NCBI RefSeq assembly: GCF_003050835.1
Contig: NZ_QAOJ01000009.1
Coordinates: 124,001-188,000, forward strand
Reading direction: 5' to 3'
Source of the DNA: Pseudomonas sp. GV071
GTDB lineage: Bacteria > Pseudomonadota > Gammaproteobacteria > Pseudomonadales > Pseudomonadaceae
Length of the DNA: 64,000 nt
The translations under genes and the position numbers were made by a program. Below are positions 53,411-64,000 of the stretch, piece by piece (position 1 is the stretch's first letter; each line of letters begins with the position of its first letter). The notes below the pieces were generated by a model. It searched no databases. It was not told where the DNA came from and saw nothing but the letters and a program-made list of their open reading frames with translations.

Positions 53411-53426
53411 TGTTGCTCCAGCAACA
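53411..53426. promoter_or_regulatory. Enhancer-type dyad TGTTGC-N4-GCAACA (SfnR site candidate)
   Basis: TGTTGCTCCAGCAACA is a perfect inverted repeat with a two-base centre, ending 84 nt upstream of the -24 GG at 53511. The same half sites occur at 60738-60753 with the same 84-nt distance to the msu sigma-54 promoter. It is a likely binding site of the sigma-54 activator encoded at 56425-57531. Confidence 0.65.
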
Positions 53427-53508: not shown

Positions 53509-53526
53509 TTGGCATGAGTGCTGCAA
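53509..53526 (+). promoter_or_regulatory. Sigma-54 (-24/-12) promoter of the sulfonate transporter operon
   Basis: TTGGCATGAGTGCTGCAA contains GG (53511-53512), ten bases, then GC (53523-53524), as in TGGCAC-N5-TTGCA. The predicted start is near 53536, 82 nt before the first codon. Confidence 0.7.
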
Positions 53527-53617
53527 TATTCCTGGTGAATAGCGAGGTTCTTTCTTTTCCTTTCTTTTTGGAATAAGCAAAGCGCCAATCGTGCCCGCCC
53601 TCGTCAGGAGTTCTGCC

Positions 53618-54625
53618 ATGCGTTCCACCCCGTTCAGCACAAGCCGTCTGGCTCGTTTTTTCTCGGTTGCCAGCCTGGTGCTGGGTTCTTCGTTGGGTTT
53701 GCTCGGCAGCGCGCAAGCGGATGAAGCGCTGCCCAAAGAGCTGCGTCTGGACTACGCCTACTACTCGCCGACCAGCCTGGTGCTCAAACACTTCGGCTGG
53801 CTGGAGCAAAGCGTGGGCGAGGGTAGCAAGGTGACCTGGACCCTCAGCCAGGGCAGCAACCGCGCGTTGGAATACCTCAACAGTGGCAGCATCGATTTCG
53901 GTTCCACCGCCGGCCTGGCCGCCGTGTTGAGCCGCGCCAACGGCAGCCCGATCAAGACCGTGTACATCGCCAGCCGTCCGGAGTGGACCGCGTTGGTGGT
54001 GGGCAAAGACTCGCCGATCAAAACCGTCGCTGACCTCAAGGGTCACAAGATCGCTGCCACCAAGGGCACCGACCCGTACCTGTTTACCCTGCGCAGCCTG
54101 GAGCAGGCCGGCCTGAGCAAAAACGATGTGGAGCTGGTGCACCTGCAGCACGCCGATGGCCGCATTGCCCTGGAGAAAGGTGATGTCGACGCCTGGGCTG
54201 GCCTCGACCCGTTGCTGGCGGCCAGCCAGCTGCAGGCCGGTTCGCGGATCCTTTACCACAACGTCAATTTCAACAGCTACGGCGTGATCAACGTCACCGA
54301 GAAGTTCGCCAAGCAATACCCGCAGGCCATCGACAAGGTGATCAGCGCTTATGAAAAAGCCCGCAAGTGGGCACAGGAAAACCCGGAAGAGCTGGCGCAG
54401 ATCCTTTCCAAGGAATCCGGCCTGCCGCTGGACGTGGCCAAGCTGCAACTGCAGCGCACTGATTTCAGCAATTCGCAGCCAGGTGCCGAGCACATTGCGG
54501 CGCTGAAAGCGGCGGCGCCGATTCTGGTGACCGAAGAACTGGTGCGCAAAGGTGTGGATGTGAATGCCGTAGTGGATCAGTTGATCGAGCCGTCGTTCAG
54601 CAAGCAGGCCGTTGCGGCTAAGTAA
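53618..54625 (+). CDS. Sulfonate-type ABC transporter substrate-binding protein
   Basis: From ATG 53618 this is a 335-residue periplasmic protein with a signal peptide (MRSTPFSTSRLARFFSVASL ... SAQA) and the SsuA/TauA fold: RLDYAYYSPTSLVLKHFGWL, SQGSNRALEYLNSGSIDFGS, SVADLKGHKIAATKGTDPYL-like strand after SPIKT. It captures an aliphatic sulfonate or sulfonate-like compound for the permease and ATPase encoded downstream. AGGAG lies nine bases before the ATG. A sigma-54 promoter precedes it, unlike the CysB-type promoters usual for ssu genes, which suggests it belongs to the SfnR regulon. Confidence 0.88.
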   Translation: MRSTPFSTSRLARFFSVASLVLGSSLGLLGSAQADEALPKELRLDYAYYSPTSLVLKHFGWLEQSVGEGSKVTWTLSQGSNRALEYLNSGSIDFGSTAGLAAVLSRANGSPIKTVYIASRPEWTALVVGKDSPIKTVADLKGHKIAATKGTDPYLFTLRSLEQAGLSKNDVELVHLQHADGRIALEKGDVDAWAGLDPLLAASQLQAGSRILYHNVNFNSYGVINVTEKFAKQYPQAIDKVISAYEKARKWAQENPEELAQILSKESGLPLDVAKLQLQRTDFSNSQPGAEHIAALKAAAPILVTEELVRKGVDVNAVVDQLIEPSFSKQAVAAK

Positions 54626-54643
54626 TTTTTTATGGCTACCCCT

Positions 54644-54701
54644 GTGGGAGGGGCTTCAGCCGCGATGCTGTTAAAAGCATCGCGGCTGAAGCCCCTCCCA
54701 C
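54644..54701. repeat. REP-type long palindrome between binding-protein and permease genes
   Basis: Perfect 26-bp arms (54644-54669 and 54676-54701) flank a 6-nt loop and carry the REP-like core GGCTTCAGCCGCGATGC. A related pair lies at 60784-60851. In the transcript it forms a very stable hairpin that may raise the level of binding protein over permease. Confidence 0.85.
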
Positions 54702-54729
54702 CTGTACATCGTTACATTGGGACAACCCT

Positions 54730-55569
54730 ATGACGAGCAAAAGCAAAACCCTGCCCGCCCTTGCGGAAAACCACTGGAAGCCGGGCTTCAACGCCGCCGC
54801 CTGGAAACGCCGTGGCAAAGGCTTGGTGTTGCCGGTGCTAGCCTTGTTGCTGCTTGAATTCGTGGTGCGCATCGGTTGGGTGCCTTCGTACCAGTTGCCC
54901 GCGCCCAGCGAGATTTTCCTCACCCTGCGCGACCTCGCTGACGGCCCGTTGTGGAGCCATATCGGCGTAAGCCTGCTGCGGGTTTTTTCCGGCTTTGCCA
55001 TCGGTGCTTCGCTGGCCTTGCTGGCCGCCGCCTGGGTCGGTTTGAGTCGCGAAGCGGAGGCCTATCTGGAACCGACCTTCGCCGGCCTGCGGGCGATTCC
55101 GAGCCTGGCCTGGGTGCCGCTGTTGCTGCTGTGGCTGGGCATCGATGAAACCTCCAAGGTGGTGCTGATCGCCATCGGCGCGTTTTTTCCGGTGTACCTC
55201 AACGGCGTGGCGGCGATCCGTAATATCGACCGCAAGCTGGTGGAAGTGGGGCAGATGTACGGCTTCAGTTCCGCCCGTTTGGCGCGGCGCATCCTCTTGC
55301 CTGCGGCGCTGCCGGGGCTGTTTACCGGGTTGCGCAGCGGCATGAGCCTGGCCTGGATGTTCCTCGTGGCGGCCGAGCTGATTGCCGCCACCAAGGGCCT
55401 GGGTTACCTGCTTACCGACGGCCGCGAAACCTCGCGCCCGGACATCGTGCTGGCGGCGATCATTGTGCTGGCCCTGCTGGGCAAACTCTGTGATGGCCTG
55501 CTGGCCAAACTGGAACAGCATTTTCTCGATTGGCGTGATGCCTTTACCGGCAATGGCGGGGAGCGTTGA
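54730..55569 (+). CDS. Sulfonate-type ABC transporter permease
   Basis: This 279-residue inner-membrane protein has six helices and the binding-protein-dependent transport EAA loop (EVGQMYGFSSARLARRILLP, then AALPGLFTGLRSGMSLAWMF). It is closest to SsuC/TauC. The hydrophilic first 30 residues are cytosolic. It is followed at a 2-nt gap by the ATPase gene, and the REP-type hairpin separates it from the binding-protein gene. Confidence 0.9.
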   Translation: MTSKSKTLPALAENHWKPGFNAAAWKRRGKGLVLPVLALLLLEFVVRIGWVPSYQLPAPSEIFLTLRDLADGPLWSHIGVSLLRVFSGFAIGASLALLAAAWVGLSREAEAYLEPTFAGLRAIPSLAWVPLLLLWLGIDETSKVVLIAIGAFFPVYLNGVAAIRNIDRKLVEVGQMYGFSSARLARRILLPAALPGLFTGLRSGMSLAWMFLVAAELIAATKGLGYLLTDGRETSRPDIVLAAIIVLALLGKLCDGLLAKLEQHFLDWRDAFTGNGGER

Positions 55570-55571
55570 GC

Positions 55572-56294
55572 ATGGCCGAGGCCTTATTGAACGTGCGCGT
55601 CGAGCGCAAGAATTTCGCTGCTGTCACCGTGCTGCGCAACATCCACCTGCAGTTGCAAGAACGCGAAGTGGTCAGCCTGCTCGGCCCCAGTGGCTGCGGC
55701 AAAAGCACCTTGCTGCGCATCGCCGCCGGCCTTGAGCGTGAGTTCAGCGGCGCGGTAAACCGTGGCGGGCAGGGCGGTGAAGTGGCTTTCGTGTTTCAGG
55801 AACCACGGCTGATGCCCTGGCTCAGCGTGGCGGAAAACATCGGCTTCAGCGCCGGCCCCCAGTACGACAAAAAGTGGGTACAGCAACTGATCAGCGAAGT
55901 CGGCCTCGACGGTTTTGCCGAGGCCTTGCCCAAGCAATTGTCGGGCGGCATGGCCCAGCGTGTGGCCCTGGCCCGTGGTCTGTATTCACGGCCACGGGTG
56001 TTGCTGCTGGATGAACCCTTCAGTGCCGTCGACGCTTTCACCCGCATGAAGCTGCAGGACCTGTTGCTGCAACTGGCCGAGCGCCACGGCATTGCCTTGC
56101 TGCTGGTGACCCATGATGTCGACGAGGCGCTGTACCTGAGCGATCGGGTGCTGGTGATGGGCAGCTCGCAGCCGAGCAGTATTCGTCTGGAGCTGGGCGT
56201 GCCAGTGACCCGGCCACGGGATCGCCGCGATCCGCGCTTGGCCACGCTGAAAGTGGAAGCGTTGACCGAATTGCAGTTGGCGCATGTGATTTAG
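55572..56294 (+). CDS. Sulfonate-type ABC transporter ATP-binding protein
   Basis: This 240-residue ABC ATPase has Walker A GPSGCGKST (about residues 37-45), the Q-loop FQEPRLMPW, the signature LSGGMAQRVALARGL, Walker B VLLLDEPFSAVD and the H-loop VTHDVDEAL. FQEPRLMPWLSVAENI is typical of SsuB/TauB-type importers. ATG 55572 lies just after the permease stop. A repeat follows the gene. Confidence 0.92.
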   Translation: MAEALLNVRVERKNFAAVTVLRNIHLQLQEREVVSLLGPSGCGKSTLLRIAAGLEREFSGAVNRGGQGGEVAFVFQEPRLMPWLSVAENIGFSAGPQYDKKWVQQLISEVGLDGFAEALPKQLSGGMAQRVALARGLYSRPRVLLLDEPFSAVDAFTRMKLQDLLLQLAERHGIALLLVTHDVDEALYLSDRVLVMGSSQPSSIRLELGVPVTRPRDRRDPRLATLKVEALTELQLAHVI

Positions 56295-56424: not shown

Positions 56425-57531
56425 CTAAATCGAAAGGTGCAACACCCGATTCCCCGCCTGCACCTCTTCCCCACGCCGTTTGTTCACCACCAGCTCACCA
56501 ATGGCAATCAACCGTGCGCGGGTGATGTTGCGGCTCAGGCCCAGCAGGCTGGCGGTGTGTACCTGGTTGTAGTGGCAGAAGCGGTAGGCGGCGCGCAGCA
56601 GGGTGTCTTCGACCTTTTCGTGCAGGCCCCCGGCTTGTTCTTCGAACAGGCGCAGGAAGGCGCGTTGCAGCAAGGCCTCGGCGGACTCTTCGGTGGTTGG
56701 CTGTTCGTCCTGACGCTCGATGCGCATGTTCGATAGGCGCAGGTCATCTTCGCGGATCAGGTCGTCGCGGCAGATCAGCAGGGTGTGGTGAATGACGTTT
56801 TCAAGCTCGCGGATATTGCCCGGCCAGCCGTAGCTCACCAGTTTGCGTTCGGCCTCGCTGCTCAGCTGAACGTCGCCATAACCCAGGCGCCCGCTGTAGC
56901 TGCGCACGAAGTGGCGGGTCAGTGGCAGGATGTCGCCGGGGCGTTCGCGCAGGGGGTGCAGTTGCAGGCTGACGACGTTCAGGCGGTAGAACAGGTCTTC
57001 ACGGAAATGCCCGGCGTTGATGGCTTTTTCCAGCAGAACGTTGGTGGCGGCCAGCACCCGTACGTTGATAGGAATGCTTTTGCGTGACCCCAGGCGCACG
57101 ACTTCGCGCTCTTGCAACACGCGCAGCAGTTTCACCTGGATGGCCATTGGCAGGTCGCCGATCTCATCGAGGAACAGGGTGCCGCCGTTGGCTTCTTCAA
57201 ACCACCCGGCCTTGGCCGCCAGGGCGCCGGTGAAGGCGCCTTTTTCGTGGCCGAACAGTTCGGCCTCCACCAGTGACTCGGAAAACGCGCCGCAGTTGAC
57301 CGCCACGAACGGCCCACTGCTGCGGTGGCTGAGGTTGTGGATATGCCGCGCCACCAACTCTTTACCGGTACCGGTTTCGCCAATGATCAGGACGCTGGCC
57401 TCGCTGGGGGCGACCTGTTGCAAGTGGGCGAGAAGGGCCTGCGATTTGGGGTCTTCGAACACCTGTGCGGTGGCCCGGATCGAGGTTGCCAGTGCGGGAG
57501 AAGCTGGGAGGGTAAGCAGTTGCATGGTCAT
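56425..57531 (-). CDS. sfnR: Sigma-54-dependent activator without sensory domain (SfnR type)
   Basis: This 368-residue enhancer-binding protein consists almost only of the AAA+ domain (about 30-265) and a Fis-like helix-turn-helix (about 325-355, TASLLGLSRNITRARLIAIG). Walker A is GETGTGKE, the sigma-54-contact loop GAFTGA is intact, and Walker B is GGTLFLDEIGDLP. Lack of an N-terminal sensor domain is typical of SfnR, whose activity is set by its expression in sulfur limitation. It is the last gene of msuE-msuD-msuC-sfnR (2-nt gap to msuC). Both sigma-54 promoters of the region carry the same upstream dyad, probably its site. ATG 57525 is an alternative start. Confidence 0.88.
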   Translation of the reverse strand: MTMQLLTLPASPALATSIRATAQVFEDPKSQALLAHLQQVAPSEASVLIIGETGTGKELVARHIHNLSHRSSGPFVAVNCGAFSESLVEAELFGHEKGAFTGALAAKAGWFEEANGGTLFLDEIGDLPMAIQVKLLRVLQEREVVRLGSRKSIPINVRVLAATNVLLEKAINAGHFREDLFYRLNVVSLQLHPLRERPGDILPLTRHFVRSYSGRLGYGDVQLSSEAERKLVSYGWPGNIRELENVIHHTLLICRDDLIREDDLRLSNMRIERQDEQPTTEESAEALLQRAFLRLFEEQAGGLHEKVEDTLLRAAYRFCHYNQVHTASLLGLSRNITRARLIAIGELVVNKRRGEEVQAGNRVLHLSI

Positions 57532-57533
57532 GC

Positions 57534-58721
57534 CTATGAGTAAAAGGTCGGGGTCGGCAAGCTGTGGTTCAGTGCCCAGTCGCCCAGTTCGTGAATCTTG
57601 TAATCCACTGGGTCGTGCAGGGTTTGCGTGCGCAGGTTGCGCCAGTAGCGGTCCAGGCGCAGGGAAGCGTGGGTGGCGCGGGCGCCGGTAACCTCGAACA
57701 AGCGGCTACACACATCGAGGCCGGTGCGGGTGGCTGAGACCTTGGCGGCGGCAATTGCCAGGGCCAGGTGGCCGCGCTCTTCGCTGCTCAGGTGGTGCTC
57801 TTTGTGCCAAGCCTCGTCGAGCAGGTGAGCGGCGCGTTCCACCAGCAGCCGGGTGCCTTCCAGGGCGGCCCAGAACTCGCCGTAATGGCGCAGTACGTAA
57901 GGGTCTTCACTGACGCTGGCAGCGCTGGACTTGAACCACGGCCGGCTTTCCTTGAGGGTGTAGTGGCGCGCTTCTTCCAGCGCGCCTTCGCTGATGCCAA
58001 GGAAGATATGGGCGAAGTGCAGCTGGGCAATCAGCGGCCGCAGGCAGGCGAACGGGGTGCTCAGCGGGCCCGGGTCGAGCAGCAGTTCCGACTCTTCCAC
58101 CCGCACCCGTTCGAAACTGGCGCTGCCGCTGTCGGTCTGGCGCTGGCCCATGTTGTTCCAGTCGTCATGCAGGGTGATGCCAGTGCGCGCGGTCGGCACG
58201 GCGGCGATCAGCAGCTTGCCGCCGGCTGTTTCGTCGATGGCCGAGGCAATCAGCATTTCCGAATCGGTGGCACCGGAGCAGAAGCTTTTTTTGCCGGAGA
58301 ACTCGCGGTGGTCGGCAAATTTCTTCACCACCGTGCGGGTGTCCAGCGGGTTGAGGGCGTTGCCCCAGAACCAGTTCTTGCGCGCGGTGGCCTCGAACCA
58401 CGGTTGCCATTGTTCCGGGCGGGAAAACAGCCTTACGGTGGCCAGCATCAGGTGCTGAAAGCCGAAGACGTGGGCGATCGAGCTGTCGACCTTGGCGAAC
58501 TCGCGGACCACGGCCAGGGTTTCACTCCAGCTCGCGCCAATGCCGCCGAACTGGGTGGGAATGCTCAGGGCCAACAGGCCGCTGGCACGCAGCGCATCGC
58601 GCTCGGCCTTCGGCGTGCCGCCGCGCTGGTCGCGCTCGACGGCAGTTTCGGCAAAGTCGGCGGCCAGCAGGCGGGCGGTTTGCAGAGGGTTGAGTACCGC
58701 CGGGTTGGGGTGGGTGCTCAC
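57534..58721 (-). CDS. msuC: FMNH2-dependent methanesulfinate monooxygenase (acyl-CoA-dehydrogenase fold)
   Basis: From GTG 58721 this is a 395-residue flavoprotein of the acyl-CoA dehydrogenase/DszC superfamily. ALSIPTQFGGIGASWSETLA, KKSFCSGATDSEMLIASAID and the C-terminal GARATHASLRLDRYWRNLRT (the family's R-D-x-R...H/T segment) are recognisable. In msuEDC operons MsuC oxidises methanesulfinate to methanesulfonate, which MsuD then desulfonates; SfnB-like enzymes are close relatives. GAGGA precedes the GTG; the frame also reaches TTG 58739. It is separated from msuD by 120 nt containing an inverted repeat. Confidence 0.8.
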   Translation of the reverse strand: MSTHPNPAVLNPLQTARLLAADFAETAVERDQRGGTPKAERDALRASGLLALSIPTQFGGIGASWSETLAVVREFAKVDSSIAHVFGFQHLMLATVRLFSRPEQWQPWFEATARKNWFWGNALNPLDTRTVVKKFADHREFSGKKSFCSGATDSEMLIASAIDETAGGKLLIAAVPTARTGITLHDDWNNMGQRQTDSGSASFERVRVEESELLLDPGPLSTPFACLRPLIAQLHFAHIFLGISEGALEEARHYTLKESRPWFKSSAASVSEDPYVLRHYGEFWAALEGTRLLVERAAHLLDEAWHKEHHLSSEERGHLALAIAAAKVSATRTGLDVCSRLFEVTGARATHASLRLDRYWRNLRTQTLHDPVDYKIHELGDWALNHSLPTPTFYS

Positions 58722-58742
58722 ACGGTGTTCCTCATTCAAGAA

Positions 58743-58820
58743 TCTGGATCCCGGCCTGCGCCGGGATGACGGAAGTTGTTGTCCGGAGCACCGTCATCCC
58801 AGAGCAGGCTGGGATCCAGA
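58743..58820. repeat. Inverted repeat inside the msu operon
   Basis: Arms of 30 nt (58743-58772 and 58791-58820) are complementary at 27 of 30 positions, with TCTGGATCCC and GGGATGACGG at their ends and an 18-nt loop. This is the dispersed CTGGATCCC...GGGATGACGG palindrome found in many Proteobacteria. It fills the msuD-msuC gap. Confidence 0.8.
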
Positions 58821-58841
58821 ATGTCCGTGTTAACGAAGGTC

Positions 58842-59996
58842 TCAAGCTGGCTGCTTACGTTGCGAAGCAGGCAACACATCGTTGGCGATCATTTCGCCAA
58901 ACGGCCCGGTAAGGTTGGTCACCCCGCGCCCCGCCAGGCTGGCGTAGGGTTCTGGCAGTAGCGGGAATACCAGCTCGGCGAAGCGGTAAGCCTCTTCCAG
59001 GTGCGGGTAACCGGAGAAAATAAAGCTGTCGATACCCAGGTCGGCGTATTCCTTGATGCGTGCGGCCACCTGCTGCGGGTCGCCCACCAGCGCGGTGCCG
59101 GCACCGCCGCGGACCAGGCCGACGCCGGCCCATAGATTCGGGGCGATTTCCAGGTTGTCGCGGCGGCCGTTGTGCAGCGCGGCCATGCGTTTCTGCCCTT
59201 CGGAGTCAAAGCGCGAAAACGATTTCTGCGCGGCTTCGATAGTCTCGTCGCTGATGTGCTCGATCAGCTTGCTGGCGGCCTGCCAGGCTTCATCGGCGGT
59301 CTCGCGCACGATTACATGCAGACGAATGCCGAACTTCACCGTGCGGCCCTGCTTGGCGGCGCGGGCACGGACATCGGCAAGTTTCTCGGCGACGGAGGCG
59401 GGCGGTTCACCCCAGGTCAGGTACACGTCGACTTGCTCGGCCGCCAGGTCGTGGGCGGCATCGGACGAGCCGCCGAAATACAGCGGTGGGTAGGGCTGTT
59501 GAATCGGCGGGTACAGGGCTTTGGCGTTCTGCACCTTGATGTGTTTGCCGTCGAAATCCACCGACTCGCCTTGCAGCACGCGGCGCCAGACTTTAAGGAA
59601 TTCGTCGGTCACTTCGTAGCGCTCGGCATGGCTCAGGTGAATGCCGTCGCCGCGGTTTTCATCCGGGTCGCCGCCGGTAACCACGTTGATCAACAGGCGC
59701 CCGCCGGACAGGCGATCGAGAGTCGCGGCCATGCGTGCCGATACGGTCGGCGAGATGATCCCGGGACGGATCGCCACCAGGTAACGCAGGCGCTCGGTCA
59801 GCGGCGCCAGGGCCGAGGCCACTACCCAGGAATCTTCGCAGGAGCGGCCGGTGGGAATCAGCACGCCGTAGTAACCGAGGCTGTCAGCGGCCTGCGCCAC
59901 TTGTTTGAGGTAGGGCAGGGTGACCGGGCGGGCGCCTTGGGTGGTGCCGAGGAAATGACCGTCGCCGTGGGTGGGGAGAAACCAGAACACATTCAT
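58842..59996 (-). CDS. msuD: FMNH2-dependent alkanesulfonate/methanesulfonate monooxygenase
   Basis: From ATG 59996 this is a 384-residue TIM-barrel flavin monooxygenase of the SsuD/MsuD family. Family features are [17 protein letters not shown] at the N-terminus, [20 protein letters not shown] (Cys at the SsuD position), [35 protein letters not shown] and a lid segment near [12 protein letters not shown]. It cleaves the C-S bond of sulfonates to release sulfite, using FMNH2 from MsuE. MsuD and SsuD are hard to separate by eye; I choose msuD from the msuE-D-C gene order. It starts 11 nt after the msuE stop. Confidence 0.87.
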
Positions 59997-60006
59997 TGCA
60001 GGGGCC

Positions 60007-60579
60007 TCAGGCAATTTTTTTCAACGGGGTGTTAGCCAGCAACGGCACGGCACGTTCGACCGCCAGTTGGATGCGTGCTTTGAGCAGCTCGTTGCTGACC
60101 TGGTAATTGAGGAAGTCGGACTCGCTGGCGTATACGCCGATGGGCAGCGTCAGGGCCTGGAAGAAGCTGAACAGCGGGCGCAGCTGGTGGTCGATGACCA
60201 ACGCATGGCGCTCGCTGCCACCGGTGGCGGCGAGCAGCACCGGGGTGTCGATCAGCGCGTTCATTTCCACCAGGTCGAACAGGTGCTTGAGCAGGCCCGG
60301 GTAGGAGCCGCGGTATACCGGCGAGGCGACGATCAGCAGGTCGGCGTTCTCGATGGCCTGTAGCTGTGTTTCGACCTCGGCTGGCAGCTCACTGCGCGAC
60401 AACGCACCGCCCACATCGCGGGCAATGCTGCCCAGCTCGATTACCTGGCCATGTACCTTGCGGCCGTCGGCGTTGAGTTGCCGGGTGAGTTGCGCCAACA
60501 GTTCCTCGGCCAGCACCAGCGTGCGGGAAGGCCGGTACGAGCTACCGGCGATGGCGATTACATTCAGGGCTGTAGTCAT
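60007..60579 (-). CDS. msuE: NAD(P)H-dependent FMN reductase
   Basis: This 190-residue flavodoxin-fold reductase supplies FMNH2 to MsuD and MsuC. Signatures are [20 protein letters not shown] (phosphate-binding GSxxxxS/T loop), [20 protein letters not shown] and [20 protein letters not shown]. It is the first gene of the msu operon. A good sigma-54 promoter lies 58 nt upstream and a dyad 158 nt upstream, so it should be induced through the SfnR-like activator when sulfate is short. Confidence 0.88.
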
Positions 60580-60636
60580 GTTGGTTTCCTGTGGTGTTGC
60601 GCGAGCAACAGGCTGATTCGCGCCGTTGCACAGGGG

Positions 60637-60655
60637 TTTGCAAGTGCTGTACCAG
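60637..60655 (-). promoter_or_regulatory. Sigma-54 promoter of the msuEDC-sfnR operon
   Basis: Read on the minus strand, CTGGTACAGCACTTGCAA has GG (60653-60652), ten bases, then GC (60641-60640). It matches TGGYAC-N5-TTGCA almost completely. The expected start is near 60628, 49 nt before msuE. Confidence 0.8.
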
Positions 60656-60737
60656 CTGCGCAGGCCCCGGAATACGGGGCTTTCAGGGCTGTTCCAGAAG
60701 GCGCCGATGTTGGTTGGGCAGGGGATTGCTGCTTTGC

Positions 60738-60753
60738 TGTTGCTGGGGCAACA
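60738..60753. promoter_or_regulatory. Enhancer-type dyad upstream of msuE (SfnR site candidate)
   Basis: TGTTGCTGGGGCAACA has the same TGTTGC/GCAACA half sites and 16-bp length as 53411-53426. It lies exactly 84 nt from the -24 GG of the msu promoter. The extended form is CTGTTGC-N4-GCAACAG. Confidence 0.65.
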
Positions 60754-60783
60754 GTTGCTGAGCCAACACTTTGTGGTGCAAGA

Positions 60784-60851
60784 GCATCGCGGCTGAAGCC
60801 GCTCCTACAGGACCGCGCCAACTTGTAGGAGCGCCTTCAGCCGCGATCGCC
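60784..60851. repeat. REP pair (REPIN-like) upstream of the msu promoter
   Basis: Two inverted REP-type units (about 60784-60811 and 60823-60851) carry the core GGCTGAAG and CTTCAGCC with CTCCTACA/TGTAGGAG ends. They are related to the palindrome at 54644-54701. They sit between the metI stop and the msu regulatory region and probably separate the two transcription units. Confidence 0.8.
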
Positions 60852-63430: not shown

Positions 63431-64000
63431 TTAACGGCGGTAACTGGCGCCGGTGTGTTGGGGTGGCAACTGCGCGGCGCGAGCAAACAGCTTTTCGCGC
63501 AGGGTGCCGGTGGCATAAGCGGTCTTGTAGGAGCCGCGGCGTTGCAGTTCGGGAATCACCAGGTCGATGAAGTCGACATAGCTTTCCGGGGTGACGATGC
63601 GGGTGAGGTTGAAGCCGTCCAGACCGGTTTCGGCGATCCAGGCTTCCAGCTCATCGGCGACCTGCTCGGGCGAACCCACCAGGGTGATATAGCGTCCGCC
63701 GAGGGCGTGTTGCTCGAGCAACTTGCGCCGGGTCCAGTCGTTGTTTTGCAGAATCTTGGTGGCCGATTGGATGGCGTTACTCTTCACGTGCTGGATCGGT
63801 TCATCCAGTTCGTACTGGGAAAAGTCGATGGCGGTGGAGGCAGAAAAATGCGCTACCCCGGCCTCGGCGCTGGCGTAGCGGCGGTACTCGGCGAGCTTGG
63901 CCTGGGCCTCTGCTTCGGTTGTGCCGACGATGACGTTGAGGCCCATGAAAATCTTCACGTCCTCGCCGTTACGGCCGGCGGCAATTGCGCTGGCGCGTAC
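63431..64000 (-). CDS. LLM-class FMN-dependent monooxygenase (NtaA/SnaA/DszA type), 5' end outside window
   Basis: The minus-strand frame is open from the right edge through ATG 63958 and on to the stop at 63431; about 189 residues are visible. VKIFMGLNVIVGTTEAEAQA and KLLEQHALGGRYITLVGSPE with QVADELEAWIAETGLDGFNL are typical of the C-terminal half of NtaA/SnaA/DszA flavin monooxygenases, as is VIPELQRRGSYKTAYATGTL REKLF. The start codon lies beyond 64000. It probably oxidises an organosulfur compound imported by the MetQNI system encoded directly downstream, using reduced flavin. Confidence 0.88.
   Translation of the reverse strand, partial: VRASAIAAGRNGEDVKIFMGLNVIVGTTEAEAQAKLAEYRRYASAEAGVAHFSASTAIDFSQYELDEPIQHVKSNAIQSATKILQNNDWTRRKLLEQHALGGRYITLVGSPEQVADELEAWIAETGLDGFNLTRIVTPESYVDFIDLVIPELQRRGSYKTAYATGTLREKLFARAAQLPPQHTGASYRR

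Follow-up and report, generated by a model that had tools for sequence, protein, structure and literature searches.

Introduction

The closest described system is that of Pseudomonas putida DS1, for which SfnR and the regulation of sfnFG and sfnECR have been reported (Endoh 2003, 2005; Habe 2007; Kouzuma 2008; cited in PMC8234197, PMC5372953 and PMC10949508). SfnR directly regulates sfnFG in P. putida, going by the title of a study cited in PMC8234197 (Endoh 2005). For P. aeruginosa, SfnR1 and SfnR2 have been described together with msuEDC (Lundgren 2019; Kertesz 1999; both cited in PMC8234197).

The locus described here lies in a window, meaning the whole 64,000-nt stretch of Pseudomonas sp. 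GV071 DNA that was analysed. Its msuE, msuD, msuC-like and sfnR genes form a tight minus-strand operon, and an ssuA-ssuC-ssuB-like cluster (53591-56294) converges on it from the plus strand (Table 1). Common to this locus and P. putida DS1 are an orthologous sensorless sigma-54 activator encoded by the last gene of an msuE/msuC operon and the sulfur-starvation gene set, and the dyad of the window recurs at sfnG promoters in relatives. Unlike the DS1 system, the window operon includes msuD, and the genome has a site at an ssuACB-like transporter and at a second msuE, an extra dyad in the msuE leader and no sfnG above the family cut-off. The P. putida sfnR operon is reportedly activated by CysB and repressed by SfnR.

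As in P. aeruginosa, msuEDC is linked to sfnR and the genome encodes several SfnR-like activators; the paralogues differ from SfnR1 and SfnR2 in that they are distant from the msu operon and adjoin SsuA-like and TonB-receptor genes, with a dyad of the TGCTGC variant. In NtrC-type paired enhancers, such as that of glnA, tandem activator sites are located roughly 100-140 nt upstream of a -24/-12 promoter. The window shares this tandem arrangement but differs in the dyad, in the activator subfamily and in the half-site spacing (15, 21 and 40 nt). The enhancer pair is a further case of a known type of switch, not a new type, and the TGTTGC-N4-GCAACA consensus may itself already be known.

Methods

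The whole genome was scanned for perfect and one-mismatch dyads and for a half-site combined with a sigma-54 element (GCAACA-N68-98-TGGYAYN5YTGC). The genus scan covered 149 Pseudomonas genomes and looked for a perfect dyad plus promoter with 70-100 nt between dyad and TGG. SfnR-type DNA-binding domains were counted at an identity of at least 69%. A profile of the sequences flanking the dyad was trained on other species, without the window's species.

Table 1. Genes and control elements of the msuE-sfnR operon and the ssuA-like cluster, in window coordinates
Feature	Position	Strand	Basis
Core SfnR enhancer dyad (predicted) TGTTGCCCCAGCAACA, msuE promoter	60738-60753	minus	Direct reading and scan; 1 of 4 perfect sites in genome
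Sigma-54 -24/-12 element TGGTACAGCACTTGCA of msuE, GG-N10-GC	60639-60654	minus	Direct reading
Core SfnR enhancer dyad (predicted) TGTTGCTCCAGCAACA, ssuA-like promoter	53411-53426	plus	Direct reading and scan
Sigma-54 -24/-12 element TGGCATGAGTGCTGCA of ssuA-like operon	53510-53525	plus	Direct reading
Overlapping degenerate dyad TGTTGGCTCAGCAACT, 15 nt upstream of msuE core, one base common to both	60753-60768	minus	
Half-sites GCAGCA (+21) and CCAACA (+40), downstream of msuE core dyad	60708-60732	minus	Genus alignment
Third perfect dyad TGTTGCTCGCGCAACA, msuE leader, about +18 to +34 from predicted start site; candidate operator or leader hairpin	60595-60610	minus	
msuE, NADH:FMN reductase	60007-60579	minus	TIGR03566 above cut-off
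msuD, FMNH2-dependent alkanesulfonate monooxygenase	58842-60014	minus	TIGR03565 above cut-off
msuC-like acyl-CoA-dehydrogenase-fold monooxygenase (methanesulfinate monooxygenase type)	57534-58739	minus	Operon position
sfnR, sigma-54 activator	56425-57531	minus	PF00158
ssuA-like sulfonate-binding protein, likely start ATG 53618, first gene of ABC transporter cluster	53591-54625	plus	TIGR01728 above cut-off
ssuC-like permease and ssuB-like ATPase genes, convergent with sfnR	54730-56294	plus	

Results

Two sigma-54 promoters share a rare dyad

The first-pass annotation had described two promoters on opposite strands with a common TGTTGC/GCAACA dyad placed 84 nt before the GG of the -24 element, and this holds to the base. 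Both dyads read TGTTGC-N4-GCAACA, and direct reading of the sequence gives a gap of exactly 84 nt to the GG at the msuE and the ssuA-like promoters. The elements TGGTACAGCACTTGCA and TGGCATGAGTGCTGCA both contain GG-N10-GC, resemble TGGCACG-N4-TTGC and are kept in orthologues; at msuE, the sigma-54 element is kept at nearly all Pseudomonas loci examined. A strict consensus scan, which may miss a promoter, detected no sigma-70/CysB promoter in the msuE intergenic region. The best match to an IHF site between dyad and promoter has three mismatches and lends no support to such a site. A REP-like inverted repeat (gcgatcgcggctgaaggcgctcctacaag and its partner, 60785-60850) separates msuE from the upstream NlpA/ABC transporter genes.

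Short consensus elements are readily found within one window, and the strict pattern of dyad plus promoter occurs in under a quarter of the sampled genomes, so that the 84-nt distance of two unrelated palindromes from two sigma-54-like elements might be simple coincidence. The counts make this explanation almost negligible and agree with the earlier judgement that the shared sequence and spacing are unlikely to arise by chance. Base composition predicts about 0.24 perfect dyads per genome, the 5,718,241-base genome holds four, and the reversed control pattern has none; the dyad is therefore not frequent at random positions, the outcome named beforehand as refuting its role. Three of the four perfect dyads fall inside the window, at the msuE promoter, the ssuA-like promoter and the msuE leader. 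The combined half-site and sigma-54 pattern occurs at three places in the genome, before msuE, the ssuA-like gene and the second msuE, all of them sulfonate-use genes, and its control at none. One-mismatch dyads show little enrichment (33 versus 21 for the control pattern), so the dyad is informative mainly in combination with a promoter. Across the genus, the same gene classes follow the dyad and the reversed control gives one match in all 149 genomes, and this survey already refutes a chance origin.

The second msuE (C9:65651-66214) has its own sigma-54 promoter, with a one-mismatch dyad 74 nt upstream of the TGG. It belongs to a sulfur-gene region (C9:60000-77500) that also contains SfnB-like and SsuA-like genes and further sigma-54 promoters with TGCTGC-type dyads. 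The fourth perfect dyad (C1:678700) is not supported as another SfnR promoter, having neither a GG-N10-GC downstream on that strand nor a flanking array; it forms a tandem with a one-mismatch dyad, 340-370 nt before a TonB-dependent receptor gene and without a recognisable -24/-12 element. A one-mismatch dyad at 63708, within a luciferase-family coding sequence, is probably due to chance.

Preferred spacing and predicted enhancer array

A perfect dyad with a promoter is present in 36 of the 149 Pseudomonas genomes. The 70-100 nt range yields 55 matches, compared with 11 and 14 in the adjacent ranges. The spacing from dyad to TGG is 82-86 nt in 33 of the 55 (p=2e-13 against a uniform distribution) and 100 nt in nine; at both window promoters it is 83, equivalent to 84 to the GG. 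The identical spacing noted at the outset is thus exact for the window pair and belongs to the commonest class, but it is not unique, and 84 nt was discarded as a strict rule since spacings of 72, 74, 88, 100 and 106-109 nt also occur. In the Pseudomonas msuE loci listed, the upstream dyad frequently departs from the consensus at one to three bases; it mostly starts 98-102 nt before the start of the TGG while the surrounding sequence diverges.

Conservation extends beyond the 16-bp dyad. In the genus alignment, an overlapping dyad at -15 (CTGTTNGCC..GCAAC) is fused to the core, half-sites CAACA(A) appear near +21 and +40, and columns +21 to +28 and +41 to +45 are conserved. The overlapping upstream dyad is present in most Pseudomonas msuE promoters. 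The flank profile recognises the msuE enhancer (p<=1e-4) and the ssuA-like enhancer (p=2e-4), and fails at the leader dyad (p=0.36) and at the fourth genomic dyad (p=0.62). Judged from this alignment and profile, the functional unit is the array, more than the dyad itself.

Probable assignment of the dyad to SfnR

The encoded SfnR has an AAA+ domain (PF00158 from residue 26), a GAFTGA motif and a C-terminal helix-turn-helix segment (NQVHTASLLGLSRN), which was assigned by eye and by alignment, Pfam HTH_8 giving no match. Because the protein begins almost directly with the AAA+ domain, it has no N-terminal sensor domain. Its identity to the sfnR product at the same operon position is 81-94% in those other Pseudomonas msuE loci where the match is full-length. 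The msuC-like gene takes its name from its place in the operon, its best NCBIfam matches, DszC and SfnB, both being below cut-off.

Genes behind the dyad, in the genus matches and separately collected msuE loci, include 23 msuE, 16 SfnG-type genes, SsuA-like genes and other transporters. Two SfnG-type genes were tested, and both exceed the TIGR04021 cut-off of 383 bits with scores of 620-633. The expectation that the dyad would be found at sfnG is borne out in relatives, where the promoters of all 16 SfnG-type genes carry a perfect copy; no gene of the window's own genome reaches the sfnG family cut-off. Since sfnFG is known to be activated by SfnR, a dyad at sfnG ties the site to this activator. 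An SfnR-type DNA-binding domain is encoded in 34 of the 36 dyad-positive genomes compared with 93 of 149 overall (Fisher p=1e-6, for genomes that are not phylogenetically independent), and in the two exceptions no gene follows the match. Conversely, in 59 SfnR-positive genomes the 70-100 nt range contains no promoter with a perfect dyad, which implies either that mismatches are allowed in the site or that genomes are not all alike.

The genome encodes three SfnR-like activators, 60-63% identical overall, whose promoters carry related dyads; in principle the dyads of the window could be bound mainly by one of the two paralogues (C9:18466 and C6:307178) instead of the SfnR encoded there. This is highly improbable, given that the paralogue DNA-binding domains are only 46-51% identical to that of SfnR and that nearby sigma-54 promoters carry dyads of the TGCTGC/GCAGCA type. 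Moreover, Burkholderia relatives with only the paralogue type at the msuE locus have no TGTTGC dyad before msuE. The two paralogues probably use the TGCTGC variant, and it is a reasonable inference that one base per half-site (TGTTGC versus TGCTGC) separates SfnR from them.

In the regions around the paralogues (C9:12000-25000 and C6:302000-318000), these adjoin an SsuA-like gene and a TonB-receptor gene whose sigma-54 promoters have TGCTGC..GCAGCA-like dyads, which points to a shifted recognition sequence. Among Burkholderia and Xanthomonas msuE promoters, most have sigma-54 elements and the TGTTGC dyad is absent; Burkholderia loci such as L083, L091 and L097 have near-consensus sigma-54 promoters (TGGCACGCTCCTTGCT) without it. 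Many Burkholderia msuE loci have, upstream and in divergent orientation, a gene for an SfnR-like activator of the 60-64% class.

Rarity, gene content, co-occurrence with SfnR and conserved position thus strongly support the proposal of the first-pass annotation that the SfnR-like activator recognises the dyad, which is very probably the SfnR enhancer. We infer the following sequence of events. Sulfate starvation would cause SfnR to be made, and SfnR would bind directly, as a multi-dimer array, to the dyad and the half-sites flanking it, some 85 nt upstream of the -24 element. Bound SfnR would then loop to the sigma-54 RNA polymerase and open the promoters of msuEDC-sfnR, the ssuACB-like transporter and the second msuE operon. 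In our assessment it is highly likely that sensorless SfnR acts on these three promoters under sulfate starvation, by array and loop, through an upstream activating sequence whose core is the dyad. Such a genus-wide definition of the site, comprising core dyad, flanking half-sites and preferred spacing, would make the Pseudomonas sulfur-starvation regulon readable from sequence and adds transporter genes to the predicted SfnR targets.

Possible autoregulation and the leader dyad

The operon order msuE-msuD-msuC-sfnR agrees with the earlier description of sfnR as its last gene, and activation of the operon would consequently feed back on the level of SfnR. Positive feedback is plausible because the sigma-54 promoter and the enhancer are conserved before sfnR-containing operons. 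In P. putida, SfnR is said to bind downstream of the sfnECR start site and to regulate these genes negatively, with CysB as their activator, which conflicts with simple positive feedback.

A third perfect dyad, absent from the first-pass annotation, sits between the msuE promoter and the ATG and could serve repression. Among the species examined it is common only to the window's species and P. turukhanskensis (L030), where a leader block of about 40 nt including the dyad is identical and nearby sequence differs; a search of 397 other Pseudomonas genomes detected no copy in a msuE-leader setting. At this position, relatives show either degenerate dyads or leader hairpins whose register differs.

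One reading gives SfnR both signs, the upstream array activating the sigma-54 promoter and the leader dyad letting abundant SfnR block its own transcription. The dyad lies just after the predicted start and is one of only four perfect copies in the genome, the shared leader block and the downstream binding reported for P. putida are in keeping with an operator, and an activator without a sensor domain would need control of its level. The lack of flanking half-sites and the restriction to two species, relatives keeping only degenerate versions, speak against this reading, which is tentative. Alternatively, the leader dyad forms an RNA hairpin preceding the ribosome-binding site and resembles the SfnR site only by coincidence. 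As RNA (UGUUGC UCGC GCAACA), the stem has pair probabilities of 0.47-0.62 in the predicted transcript, and relatives have leader hairpins of 5-6 bp at a similar distance to the start codon, with different sequence. Their hairpin is in another register, however, so the structure is not conserved base for base, and a coincidental match to a rare 12-base site is improbable. A hairpin is about equally likely as an operator.

The more specific proposal that SfnR controls itself in both directions in this species, switched on by the upstream array and off at high SfnR by a leader copy gained in the lineage, is rather doubtful. If true, it would explain how a conserved enhancer can go together with the repression described in P. 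putida, and would reveal by what means a sigma-54 activator lacking a sensor domain keeps itself in check. The site definition also makes it directly testable whether SfnR raises or lowers transcription of its own operon. Between msuD and msuC, an inverted repeat (tctggatcccagcctg.. / ..caggccgggatccaga, 58745-58822) might leave msuC and sfnR less strongly expressed than msuE and msuD.
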